From NCBI GenBank assembly GCA_949297785.1, contig CASFTW010000002.1, positions 1 to 64,000 on the forward strand: DNA of 64,000 nucleotides. Direction: 5' to 3'. The notes beneath the pieces were generated by a model. The model was not told the DNA's origin. It was given only the letters and a program-made list of their open reading frames with translations, and did no database searches. Source of the stretch: an uncultured Spirochaetales bacterium. GTDB taxonomy: Bacteria; Spirochaetota; Spirochaetia; Sphaerochaetales; Sphaerochaetaceae. Within the stretch, counting starts at the first letter, position 1. Each line of letters starts with the position of its first letter. Position numbers and translations under genes: made by a program. This document shows, in pieces, positions 23,983 to 37,931 of this stretch.

Positions 23983-24198
23983 ATGAGAAAGAAAACATAT
24001 GAGCCAATTCAATCTGCATGTAAAGATTGCGGTGAAGATTTTGTGATTAGTGTTGAAGAACAAAAATATTTTGCTTCAATTGGTTTGGTATTACCTAAAA
24101 GATGTAAGGATTGCAGGAAAAGGCGTAAAGAAATAAAAAAAAGTTATAACGGAAAAACAGAAAGCTGGAGCACAGCAGAAAAGATGGGAAAAAGATGA
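23983..24198 (+). CDS. Zinc-ribbon protein next to AbiH
   Basis: The protein has 71 residues from ATG 23983 (GGAAGAGG upstream; an in-frame GTG lies at 23980). CKDCGEDFVISVEEQKYF…LPKRCKDCRKRRK is the CxxCGxxF…EQ.(F/Y)F…P.RC..CR pattern of small treble-clef zinc-ribbon proteins. The stop is one base before the AbiH start, so the two are probably co-translated. Such ribbons may bind RNA or partner proteins. Confidence 0.75.
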   Translation: MRKKTYEPIQSACKDCGEDFVISVEEQKYFASIGLVLPKRCKDCRKRRKEIKKSYNGKTESWSTAEKMGKR

Positions 24199-24199
24199 A

Positions 24200-25177
24200 A
24201 TGGAAATAAATGAGATTTTAAAAGAGTTTCCTTTTCCACAGATAACGCTCAATGAAATAGTACTTGAAAATCCATCAAGATCTCTTGTGATTATCGGCAA
24301 TGGATTTGATCTGATGCATGGGGTAAAGTCTTCATACCGGGATTTTCAGAAGACTATAGGGAGAAACAGTCCTTTGCGGTTTTATATGGAGACTTATCTT
24401 GATACTTCAGATCTATGGTCTGATCTTGAAGACTCGTTAGGACGATTTGATTACAGCCGGTTTCTCACCTCGGATATTACTGATATGTGGCTTGATGGTT
24501 TTGGCGCATATGATCAGGATGCACAGGCAGCTGATTATTTTGCTGCTGTGGAAACAGCGATTGCACCGGCTTTTGAGATACCTGGAGAATTAAAGCAACG
24601 GCTCATGAAATGGGTAAAAACATTGACTGTAGAAGGTGATGCCAGGCCGTTTCAGATGTTTCATGGTGATTACAGAGTGTTGTCTTTCAATTATACCGAG
24701 TTTATTGAAAGTCTGTACGGTGCAGATCCTGATCGTATCTGCTATATTCATGGCTGCCGGAAAAACAATAACCCCGATGAGCTGATTCTTGGACACAAAG
24801 CTGGTATGGAGGATGAACAGTGGGACAAGGTAAATCTCAAACCATTCAAGTTCAAGGATCCATATAAAAGATATATTATGGAATCAGCATTGGAAACCGC
24901 TGCTGTGGAAGCTTCATGGTATGATGAGGCGACAACAAAGAAGTGCAGTGAGATCATAAAATCGCATCATGAGTTTTTTGATTGTCTGTCCGATGTCGAA
25001 GAAATCTTTGTGATCGGACATTCTCTTGCAGAGGTTGATTATCCATACTTTGAAGAAATATGCAGGAAAACAAATGCAAGTTGGTACATTGGCTATCATT
25101 CTTCAGCTGATTTAAACAGACTGCTTGTTTTTGCAGATAGGATGAATTTGAGAAAAATCACAGTATTCAGAATTTGA
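24200..25177 (+). CDS. abiH: AbiH-family abortive-infection protein
   Basis: The protein has 325 residues. The AbiH signature IIGNGFDLMHGVKSSYRDF spans 31-49, and further family features are FNYTEFIESLYG, ICYIHGCRK and the C-terminal IGHSLAEVDYPYF. AbiH was named for phage abortive infection in Lactococcus; its biochemical action is unclear. The ATG follows the zinc-ribbon stop by one base. A partner zinc-ribbon is not a fixed part of AbiH systems that I know of. Confidence 0.85.
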   Translation: MEINEILKEFPFPQITLNEIVLENPSRSLVIIGNGFDLMHGVKSSYRDFQKTIGRNSPLRFYMETYLDTSDLWSDLEDSLGRFDYSRFLTSDITDMWLDGFGAYDQDAQAADYFAAVETAIAPAFEIPGELKQRLMKWVKTLTVEGDARPFQMFHGDYRVLSFNYTEFIESLYGADPDRICYIHGCRKNNNPDELILGHKAGMEDEQWDKVNLKPFKFKDPYKRYIMESALETAAVEASWYDEATTKKCSEIIKSHHEFFDCLSDVEEIFVIGHSLAEVDYPYFEEICRKTNASWYIGYHSSADLNRLLVFADRMNLRKITVFRI

Positions 25178-25449
25178 ATGAGATAGTCATAGAACGAGCT
25201 ATACAGAATACCATGCAAGCATGAATTGCTTTGTATGCTTATGTATTCAATCATGCAGAAAATGAAGTTCATTGTCCTTAGTATTTAGAGTTTTGAGGAC
25301 AGAGTACAAAAAGTCATATGTTTATTGATACTTAAATTATTTTAAGTAAACAGTTGTTTTCTTTTCTTTGTTATGTTGGAAAATCGAACATGAATAGTTT
25401 TATAAATTTTGATTTTGATAATAATATATGGATGAGAGGAAAGGAAAAA

Positions 25450-26095: not shown

Positions 26096-27331
26096 ATGGA
26101 TGAATGGGATCTGTTCAAAGACAAGTTATATTTTGCAAAGGAGGCTGCTGCCTATCTTGGTATCAGTGTACAGCGGCTCGCTAAGCTTACAAAAGAAGGC
26201 AAGGTTCTTCCTCTGAAGAAGAATTCTTCAGGTACGGTGTATCATTTGGATGAACTTGAAAAGCGCAAAAGAGAATTATCCATTTTTGATAGTCTTGATA
26301 AAAATATTAAGGATGCTGGGATGTTTAAAATAAACACTGCTGTCCGGCAGGAAGCTTTGAATTTTGCTGTGACAATGAATATCCTCAAAGCAAGTGAAAA
26401 GAAAGCCAACAGTCTGTTCAATGGACTTCCACTTGAATTAATCTGCACACCAATGAATGAAGAACTATCTAAATGGAGTTCTATTCTGAACTGCAGCGTA
26501 ACAGATATTGCGGGTTCATATTCGAGAGCAGCAGCTGCATTCAGTAATCTGAAAGAAGATGATTGTATAATCAAGTTTGGCGATGATGAATATCCTGAGC
26601 TTCTGGCAAGAACAGAAGAGGCTCCACGGTTTTTATATTTACGCGGAAGGACTGAACTTTTACAGAATATAAGAACTGTTGCTCTTGTCGGCAGCCGGCA
26701 GGCGGGAGATGATGGTAAAAGGAATACGGAAAGAGTTGCAAGGGTTCTTGGCCAGAATGGAATAATAATAGTATCAGGACTTGCAAAAGGCATAGATGTG
26801 ACTGCACACCGAAGCGCTCTTGCAAACGGTTTTGATACTATTGCGGTAATCGGTACCAATTTGAATCAGTATTATCCAAGTGAAAACATGGAAGTTCAGA
26901 AACAGATTGAAAAAGAAGGACTTGTCATATCTCAGTTTTCCCCAGCAACAAAGACAGAAAGATGGTTCTTCCCGCTTCGTGATGGTGTAATGAGCGGTTT
27001 ATCTCAGGCTACTGTGATTATGGAAGCTGGTGAGACTTCCGGTGCATTGAAGCAAGCAGCTTTTGCACTGAAACAAGGCCGTCTTGTTCTTATTCCGCAA
27101 AATGCTTTTATGCTGAAAACAATTTCCTGGCCTGCGAGACTGGAGAAAAGGGGAGCTCTGCGTGTCAGGTCTCCAAAAGAGATTATTCAGAAATTATCAG
27201 AATATAAAGTTTATAAAAATAATATACCGAAAATGGATGATTATTCACTTTTTATAAATTTGGAAAATGATCAGATGGTTGTCGCAGATACAGAGGGGAA
27301 TTATTGTGCAGACAGATCAAAGAAAGACTGA
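26096..27331 (+). CDS. DprA-like Rossmann protein with N-terminal HTH
   Basis: The protein has 411 residues. Residues 10-60 form a MerR/excisionase-type HTH (FAKEAAAYLGISVQRLAKL…HLDELEKRK). A middle helical part leads to a DprA/Smf Rossmann domain from about 190: VALVGSRQAG, SGLAKGIDVTAHRSAL, and the late FPLRDGVMSGLSQATVIMEAGETSGA. True DprA loads RecA on transforming DNA. This copy has extra N-terminal domains and is coupled to a phosphoribosyltransferase-like gene, so it is probably a specialised paralogue, possibly for defence. The leaderless start is supported by a promoter placed right before the ATG. Confidence 0.8.
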   Translation: MDEWDLFKDKLYFAKEAAAYLGISVQRLAKLTKEGKVLPLKKNSSGTVYHLDELEKRKRELSIFDSLDKNIKDAGMFKINTAVRQEALNFAVTMNILKASEKKANSLFNGLPLELICTPMNEELSKWSSILNCSVTDIAGSYSRAAAAFSNLKEDDCIIKFGDDEYPELLARTEEAPRFLYLRGRTELLQNIRTVALVGSRQAGDDGKRNTERVARVLGQNGIIIVSGLAKGIDVTAHRSALANGFDTIAVIGTNLNQYYPSENMEVQKQIEKEGLVISQFSPATKTERWFFPLRDGVMSGLSQATVIMEAGETSGALKQAAFALKQGRLVLIPQNAFMLKTISWPARLEKRGALRVRSPKEIIQKLSEYKVYKNNIPKMDDYSLFINLENDQMVVADTEGNYCADRSKKD

Positions 27332-35393: not shown

Positions 35394-35487
35394 TAAGATG
35401 AAATATATGCTGAATATATATTACAAATTGATACTGTTAATGTTGAAAATACATTAGTTATTTGCATAGCATTCATATTGATTTTTG

Positions 35488-36055: not shown

Positions 36056-36707
36056 CCTATATTCTCATTGTGGTATTATTATGCCATAAAAAGGCCAAAA
36101 ATAATAGATTAGAAAAGTGACTTTTGTCTGTTATAAATTCCATGCTTGAAAACCCAATATGCTTGCATATGGGAACAGTCCGTTCGTTTAGCTATATCGT
36201 ATATAGGCACAATTATCACAGTATGAGAAATTCATATTCGTCTCATAAGTATAAAATCTTATGCCTCCTTTGCATTGACTGTTTCTGTATAAGCACGTCA
36301 GCTTGATGATAATCATCCGTGTTTATGAAACGTTGAAATTATTTGCCTGTTATATTTTGCTTCATTAGAAAATTCCCGTCAGATTGCATTTGTAGAAGAG
36401 CCTGATAACTGACTTGTATTATTATCTTGTTAATCTGACACTTGAAATGAAAAAGAGTGCAGGTACAATACGTATAATTACAATTATACATAGCGACATA
36501 AGAAATCGTGAATGGATTACATTTTATTGTGTTATGGTATCGTATCCATATATTCTTTATCTCGATTTATTTTGTTGACATAGAAATAGATTTAAACGTT
36601 TGATAAGATAAAGGAAAAACAAGTAAGTTGTTTTGTTCTTTGACAAAAATAGCGTGGATCGACTCTATATATCGCATATATTATGTAGATAAACCACTTT
36701 CTGTGGG

Positions 36708-36844
36708 GTTTTCTCCACGCACGTGGAGATGTTTCGCAGGCTTATATGTCAGGTGTGATGAAAGCTTAGTTTTCTCCACGCATGTGGAGATGTTCCCGCA
36801 ACTGTTGGGACAATCTCAAGTAGTGCCAGGTTTTCTCCACGCAT
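36708..36844 (+). CRISPR. Decayed orphan CRISPR mini-array, type I-E-like repeat
   Basis: GTTTTCTCCACGCA begins at 36708, 36769 and 36830, exactly 61 bases apart. The first two repeats are 28 bases (GTTTTCTCCACG, a two-base centre, then GTGGAGATGTT) with an internal CTCCAC…GTGGAG hairpin, and they differ at one centre base. The third is cut after about 14 bases. The spacers are about 33 bases and distinct. Repeat length, hairpin and spacing fit type I-E. There are no cas genes in the window. The AT-rich 36307-36700 upstream may be leader; otherwise nothing is seen in 36056-37063. Confidence 0.75.
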
Positions 36845-37063
36845 TAAGTGACTGACCCATAAATATATGGAAGGACATAAGCAAGGGAAACAGTCTTAGA
36901 TTTATCCATGTTAATGTCCTGTCATATAATTTCAATGACGAGGAAGAACTGTTTTACTTTTGGTGCATTTATTTGAATTTAAGATGAATATAGCTGTTGA
37001 ACTCGTTGATATAGCTAACATTGTGTTGAAAATACATTATTAAATTATTATTCTGTTTCTGTG

Positions 37064-37228
37064 ATGTTCAATAAAGATTATGTTCTTGATGAGATTAGGA
37101 AGTCTGAACAGTTTGCAGATGATCAGAAATATATTCTTGATTACTGCATGAGAGTGCGGCTTGAAAATAAAGAAAGGAAAGAAAGAAATGATAAACAAAT
37201 TCCAGATGTCAGTGGAAGACAATGTTGA
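37064..37228 (+). CDS. Small ORF overlapping the Fic gene start
   Basis: The ORF has 54 residues (FNKDYVLDEIRKSEQFADDQ…). The charged helical composition looks coding up to about residue 40. It overlaps the Fic start by 41 bases, an arrangement seen for small Fic antitoxins, but it lacks the S/TxxxE(G/N) inhibitory motif. There is no clear ribosome-binding site. It could also be a truncated remnant. Confidence 0.3.
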   Translation: MFNKDYVLDEIRKSEQFADDQKYILDYCMRVRLENKERKERNDKQIPDVSGRQC

Positions 37229-37931
37229 ATTTGCAAAACGTCAGATAGTTGACTCGATTTATAAAGAAGCTCGTATAGAAGGTATAAATGTAACATTTCC
37301 TGAAACCCAGCAGATTTATGACGGCTTTCTGGTGAACAGCCTTTCTTATGAAGATACTACGAAAATAATAAATCTCAAGCATGCCTGGTTCTTTGTTTTT
37401 GACAGCCTGGACTATCCGTTTGACTTGAGATACATGAGGCATATCAATGCGATAATTGAAACAAATCTGATCAGAAATGCCGGTGTTGTGAGAAATATAA
37501 GTGTCCGCATATCCGGTACAGACTGGATACCAGAAATCCCGTCGCCGGAGAAAATAAATAGAGAAATAAACAGGATCAGACAGATTGAAAATCCTACAGA
37601 CAGAAGTCTGGAGCTGATGCTGTCTGTGATGAGAGGACAGTATTTTGAAGATGGCAACAAGAGAACGGCACAGCTTGTTGCCAATCATGAAATGATAAGC
37701 AATGGCTGCGGTATCATATCTGTGCCTGTTGGTCTTAAAACGGAATTCTCATCTCTTCTTGTGGATTACTATGAATCTGATGACAGTAAACGGATAAAAG
37801 AGTTCCTCTATGATTCCTGTATCTCCGGCTTTTCAAGGGGATACCGGCTTTCTGACGAGGAGATTGCCACACAGAGAGAGGAAGATGCAAAAGCCATTGA
37901 TGATTTTCTGAAAAAGAAAGGGGACAAGTAA
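37188..37931 (+). CDS. Fic-fold protein with altered catalytic motif
   Basis: The protein has 247 residues from ATG 37188 (GGAAAG upstream; the frame is open to 37161). The Fic core reads RGQYFEDGNKRTAQL. The usual HPFxDGNxR has Gln in place of the catalytic His, and the rest of the motif (F, D, G, N, R) is kept. Near the N-terminus KEARIEGINVTF resembles the α-inhibitory (S/T)xxxE(G/N) element. Fic enzymes transfer AMP or other groups to target proteins. The Gln variant occurs in part of the family from memory, so this may be a non-AMPylating clade rather than a dead copy. Confidence 0.7.
   Translation: MINKFQMSVEDNVEFAKRQIVDSIYKEARIEGINVTFPETQQIYDGFLVNSLSYEDTTKIINLKHAWFFVFDSLDYPFDLRYMRHINAIIETNLIRNAGVVRNISVRISGTDWIPEIPSPEKINREINRIRQIENPTDRSLELMLSVMRGQYFEDGNKRTAQLVANHEMISNGCGIISVPVGLKTEFSSLLVDYYESDDSKRIKEFLYDSCISGFSRGYRLSDEEIATQREEDAKAIDDFLKKKGDK

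Follow-up and report, generated by a model that had tools for sequence, protein, structure and literature searches.

The 64,000-nucleotide stretch of DNA analysed here (the window) carries a short array which, by its repeat and leader, is a genuine CRISPR mini-array of type I-E and which, judged from the cas genes of its host, is an orphan. The reading that we favor, and consider rather probable, is that of a two-spacer I-E mini-array, equipped with a leader of its own, that now stands without Cas proteins and would lie dormant. Orphan CRISPR arrays are reported to be frequent and are often read as remnants.

Repeats, spacers and leader of the array

The array runs along the forward strand, with its leader on the left and a broken repeat at the far end, and is made up of the following features.

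36600-36707, + strand: leader, related to the leaders of G013 arrays a and b and to the cas-linked leaders of G044 and G067
36708-36735, + strand: repeat 1, 28 nt, 7-bp stem
36736-36768, + strand: spacer 1, 33 nt, first base G, convincing target not found
36769-36796, + strand: repeat 2, 28 nt, 7-bp stem
36797-36829, + strand: spacer 2, 33 nt, convincing target not found
36830-36844, + strand: terminal repeat, first 15 nt only

Repeat starts at 36708, 36769 and 36830 give the exact spacing described in the earlier note (61 and 61 nt). No other exact 14-mer recurs three times at an equal interval (20-100 nt) within the 64-kb window, and an equally spaced triple occurred in none of 30 first-order Markov sequences. 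The single-base difference previously reported between the two full copies holds over 26 positions (C/T at repeat base 15), and inclusion of the final two bases adds a second (T/C at base 27), giving two differences over 28. The third copy is indeed truncated, matching copy 2 for 15 nt (36830-36844) and diverging beyond. Folded as RNA, either full repeat yields the internal hairpin that had been noticed, a 7-bp stem closed by a 4-nt loop at -10.7 kcal/mol, with z values of -3.36 and -3.83. Both the palindromic repeat of about 28-29 nt and the unit of about 61 nt are those of a type I-E array. No Rfam family reached its gathering score anywhere in the window, and the matches obtained at the array with a loose threshold were all sub-threshold and were set aside. 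In the host genome (G000; 2,219,725 bases in 50 contigs, 95.28% complete), the repeat occurs twice with up to three mismatches allowed, both times at the window site; the dispersed copies that would characterize an interspersed repeat, and longer arrays with this repeat, were both absent.

The same repeat was found, within three mismatches, in eight of 139 genomes of the family, the host's own included. In G044, a complete I-E operon running from cas3 to cas2 has an array on either side, with repeats one to three bases different from the window type. The array after cas2 consists of about 40 units, with a repeat one base off each full window copy, and the array on the other side of the operon has 9 units, one to two bases off the search pattern. 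The first two genes of this operon were named Cas3e and Cas8e by PADLOC, cas7e and cas6e were named by Pfam, and the remaining ones by their order and homology to other operons. G067 and G077 likewise have all eight cas genes, with repeats one and two mismatches from the pattern. Because near-identical repeats accompany I-E operons in relatives, the window array is assigned to type I-E by its repeat. An exact search of named species genomes, a set that may omit the window's own genome, returned two records, an uncultured Spirochaetaceae MAG and an uncultured Spirochaetales MAG, and the repeat was not found in viral contigs.

The leader points to the same type. Over 108 nt it shares 92.6% identity with the leader of array a in the sister genome G013 and 78.9% with that of array b. 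When searched with a sequence model built from these three orphan leaders (the window's own included) plus the first repeat, the cas-linked arrays scored 40.9 bits in G067 and 38.8 bits in G044 at their first repeat, against mostly 12-20 bits and once 26 at internal repeats. Matches of about 24 bits can be due to chance, since G032 gave a spurious-looking match of 24.2 bits with no repeat seen in the stretch examined. Thus, a leader related to those of I-E loci lies directly upstream of the first repeat. A promoter scan scored no sigma-70-like site in this leader; a TTGACA read by eye as a promoter was discarded, the scan giving nothing there.

The window array accordingly shares with the I-E arrays of G044 and G067 the 28-nt repeat (one base from that of G044 after cas2), the 61-nt unit, the orientation and a related leader, and the earlier description of the repeats as CRISPR and I-E-like is supported. 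It differs from them in its number of spacers, two as compared with the 10 counted in G067 and the 48 in the examined part of G044, and in that cas7e or cas6e of type I-E was not detected in its genome. On plasmids, orphan arrays have been reported to be shorter than cas-linked arrays by an average of 39% (PMC9071438).

Cas genes of the host and of its relatives

The same 14 of the 139 family genomes gave matches to both Cas7e (PF09344) and Cas6e (PF08798). With these Pfam models, both were absent from all 16 genomes of the genus, the host's own included. Two of 14 control genomes gave a signal in this search and the E. coli control genome did not, so that a divergent I-E system could be missed. 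A tblastn search with the eight G044 Cas proteins yielded no match at E<=1 in the window, in agreement with the earlier statement that no cas genes lie within 25 kb on either side. The cas7e and cas6e pair that marks a type I-E system was thus not found in an assembly that is 95.28% complete; with 50 contigs and this completeness, a lost contig bearing I-E cas genes is possible.

The sole Cas1 found in the host genome belongs to a type II locus on contig C7 (L055 8369-14172), together with a 1171-aa Cas9 and an ORF at the position where Cas2 is normally encoded; PADLOC matched Cas1_II and Cas9 there, and the associated repeat, about 36 nt long by eye, is present in 13 copies at 66-nt spacing. 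Because I-E cas7e and cas6e were not found and the host's CRISPR system is of type II, the window array appears to be an orphan, as had been proposed.

Spacers of orphan arrays and their matches to cas7e

Searches with the two window spacers found no convincing target. Among phages, only chance-level matches of 17-22 nt at E 4 were obtained; among plasmids, spacer 1 had no match and spacer 2 one at E 3; viral contigs gave none for six patterns; and within three mismatches the 139 family genomes returned the array itself only. The six spacers of G000 and G013 all differ though their leaders are related, which suggests past spacer turnover.

The array belongs to a wider set of 12 orphan arrays with 23 spacers (one to four per array) in six genomes without detected cas7e or cas6e: one array each in G000, G002, G052 and G080, two in G013 and six in G045, a solitary repeat in G045 being left out. 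The G045 arrays are small, partly degenerate and scattered over contigs (L068, L069, L070, L071, L072, L116), in contexts that vary among those listed. A leader shared among them was suspected from a motif read by eye and was not retained, BLAST giving nothing below E 0.03 and the model only weak matches, the best at E 2.5e-4. One G045 orphan spacer, on contig C28 at about 26958-26990 (L116), starts with CCGACCGGGG and is palindromic and G+C-rich, unlike an ordinary spacer. Among 21 orphan spacers, no pair agreed at 24 or more positions, nor did any of them agree to that extent with the 221 control spacers described below.

The window array might serve as a barrier, its spacers targeting I-E cas genes and thereby turning an incoming I-E system on itself and blocking its establishment. 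Such a role has a counterpart in the orphan I-F CRISPR4 arrays of E. coli, which carry anti-cas spacers (Almendros et al. 2016, as related in the excerpts of PMC8616872 and PMC12814883). Orphan spacers were compared with 24 loci bearing Cas7e (190,902 nt of cas span), of which 15 came from 14 family genomes and nine from other families of the class; some loci were cut by contig ends, and in some the Cas7e was only 33-41% identical to that of G044. Each spacer was set against 100 single-base shuffles, and 221 spacers from cas-linked arrays, drawn from seven of the 15 family loci, served as controls. Cas matches were not expected in these control arrays, because such spacers would be self-harming.

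Two orphan spacers stood out. One from G002 matched cas7e of G067 at 28 of 33 positions and one from G080 matched cas7e of G077 at 28 of 32; none of 100 shuffles reached either value (the best shuffles of the two spacers being 23 and 24). Matching positions numbered 20-23 for the remaining 21 orphan spacers, 20-24 for the controls and at most 26 for the shuffles of all spacers. Cas matches were thus seen for two of 23 orphan spacers against none of 221 controls (Fisher p 0.0085, spacers of the same array not being independent). Both cas7e protospacers are immediately preceded by AA and begin with T or C. T or C is likewise the first base of every one of the 86 spacers in the arrays of G044, G067 and G077, as well as of 20 of 21 orphan spacers, spacer 1 of the window with its G being the sole exception; the two orphan spacers beyond these 21 begin with T and C, and in the divergent array of G100 the base is G in 32 of 34 spacers. 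Together, these observations suggest an AAY motif for G044-like systems. The G080 repeat is the same as that of G077, and the G002 repeat is closest to the G067 type, with three differences against four from the G044 type. Both matches fall in a conserved part of cas7e, where a diverged match is easiest to see, so that anti-cas spacers directed elsewhere could be missed. The one-spacer arrays concerned lie at about 9499-9587 of L114 in G002 and at 458-545 of L074 in G080.

The window's own spacers do not share this property. Against the cas span of the 24 loci they reached 22 of 33 positions (21 of 100 shuffles as good) and 20 of 33 (98 of 100), and with 600 nt added on each side of every span, 22 and 21 (20 and 60 of 100), all at chance level; a peptide-level test was also null. 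Across the set, the 14 spacers of G045 and the four of G013 matched at no more than 23 positions, where three to four of 100 shuffles do as well, leaving G002 and G080 as the only genomes with anti-cas spacers. Two further candidates were rejected. G045 spacers gave peptide-level scores of 43 against Cas3 and 32 against Cas8e, reached by none of 40 shuffles each, but the 221 controls reach 45. A spacer of G013 array a matched 24 of 33 positions (none of 100 shuffles), but the site lies after cas2 in the leader of the divergent I-E arrays of G099 and G100, without AA upstream, and within the cas span the spacer attained 20 of 33. That site (L124 11680-11712 in G099, also L125 in G100) may be a chance match in A+T-rich DNA.

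The likeness to the E. coli arrays, as far as the excerpts describe them, lies in a small array within a genome without the matching cas genes and, in G002 and G080, in spacers that match a cas gene of such a system; the differences are that the window array is of type I-E and that its spacers match no cas gene tested. In the titles and abstract openings of the open-licence papers surveyed, cas-targeting spacers were not described for spirochaetes or for orphan arrays of type I-E. We regard a barrier function of the window array as unlikely, and it is slightly less likely again that family members lacking I-E cas genes keep small I-E arrays for this purpose, the spacers of the window array being aimed at an unsequenced I-E variant. 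The model is worth testing because the wider set holds two clear anti-cas spacers, the window's own lending it no support.

Genomic site, origin and present state

The array sits in a block that is absent from the related genome G014, whose match to the window runs on the left up to 35463 (94.9% over 9.4 kb) and resumes at 37020 (89.5% over 10.6 kb). The edges of this block and the gene beyond it are as follows.

35441-35456, + strand: 16-bp exact direct repeat, left copy, bordering the block that G014 lacks
37024-37039, + strand: 16-bp exact direct repeat, right copy, at the other border of this block
37161-37931, + strand: gene for a Fic-domain protein, downstream of the array, also present in G013 and G014

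The direct repeat, of which G014 has one copy with two mismatches, was the only candidate trace of a mobile element found around the block, which holds a gene for a Phd-type antitoxin in addition to the array. G013 has the same right flank as the window (92.4% over 10.8 kb), and its site reads DUF4062, AbiH, leader-array a, IetA, IetS, leader-array b and the Fic gene; the array adjoins an antitoxin-like gene in G000, and the arrays of G013 adjoin defence genes. The IetA and IetS defence operon of G013 (L053 10882-14291) lies between two related leader-arrays. Elsewhere in the window, 24121-25225, about 11 kb from the window array, is 91.5% identical to the AbiH-bearing stretch beside array a of G013, and a stretch of 46-50 bases at 36129-36178 recurs at G000:C2:67175-67220 and G014:C57:5588-5637 with 93-94% identity.

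This arrangement raises the idea that leader-array units act as homology blocks for swapping defence cassettes at the site. G013 has two arrays around IetAS, and the leader of G000 is nearer to a while its downstream tail is nearer to b (78.2%, or 87.2% without gaps, against 50.6%, or 82.9% without gaps, to a), as would be expected from a single crossover deleting IetAS. The pattern is seen at one locus only, however; the 100 nt upstream of the G000 leader resemble a and b to much the same degree (69.2% and 64.1%), and the pattern can equally be accounted for by a duplicative insertion in G013. We deem such a role improbable.

A regulatory role of the CreTA kind, in which the array RNA would guide Cascade to repress a nearby toxin such as the downstream Fic gene, is suggested by the position of the array upstream of that gene on the same strand and by the similar position of array a upstream of IetAS in G013. 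According to the excerpt of PMC9458426, CreTA (CRISPR-regulated toxin-antitoxin) needs Cascade and a spacer matching the toxin promoter. The window array resembles the systems in that excerpt in having one or two repeats that stand apart from a main array and adjoin toxin-like genes, and differs from them in that Cascade was not found, a match to a local promoter was not seen, and its full repeats are little degenerated. By total matches, no spacer exceeded its 20 shuffles against the local 64 kb of G000 or 20 kb of G013, a result that does not support local regulation by the spacers. One G013 spacer has a 10-nt seed run (shuffles reaching at most 9), but the site is 3.4 kb from the nearest array. 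Moreover, the spacers are not common to both species, and G014 has the Fic gene without the array. Such regulation is, in our estimate, very improbable.

That the unit could be a chance repeat, or a dispersed repeat family foreign to CRISPR, as its mere two to three copies in the window and the scattered copies in G045 might hint, deserves practically no credence in view of its single site in the host genome, the random sequences devoid of such triples and the related cas-linked leaders, and is already refuted by its one-base distance from the repeat of the G044 I-E array.

The earlier note had further called the array decayed and ascribed it to an ancestral I-E system. Decay is weakly supported: the third repeat is broken, but the leader is well kept with respect to array a of G013, both full repeats fold, and cas-linked arrays also end in a degenerate leader-distal repeat (seven mismatches in G044, four in G067), which makes the broken copy weak evidence of decay. 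An ancestral remnant is possible; arrival by transfer is just as open, because cas7e and cas6e were found in none of the 16 genomes of the genus and the block is absent from G014.

Under the dormant-orphan reading that we favor, the array would once have been filled by an I-E adaptation module (Cas1-Cas2), and would have been either left behind upon loss of the cas genes or gained by transfer. As Cas6e was not found, any transcript from the leader would stay uncut, and dormancy is the most likely present state of the array. Renewed activity would require that a compatible I-E Cascade enter the cell and take up the guides of the array. The first base of spacer 1, the protospacers that were not found and the promoter that was not scored in the leader are counterpoints to this reading.

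The related set of orphan arrays can now be compared, within one bacterial family, with intact systems of near-identical repeat, GTTTTCTCCACGCAYGTGGAGATGTTYC being the array's repeat to look for beside I-E operons. The cas7e-matching spacers of two orphan arrays would extend to type I-E the pattern described for the I-F arrays of E. coli, and a model in which such arrays stand guard gives a testable reason why the genus may lack I-E systems.
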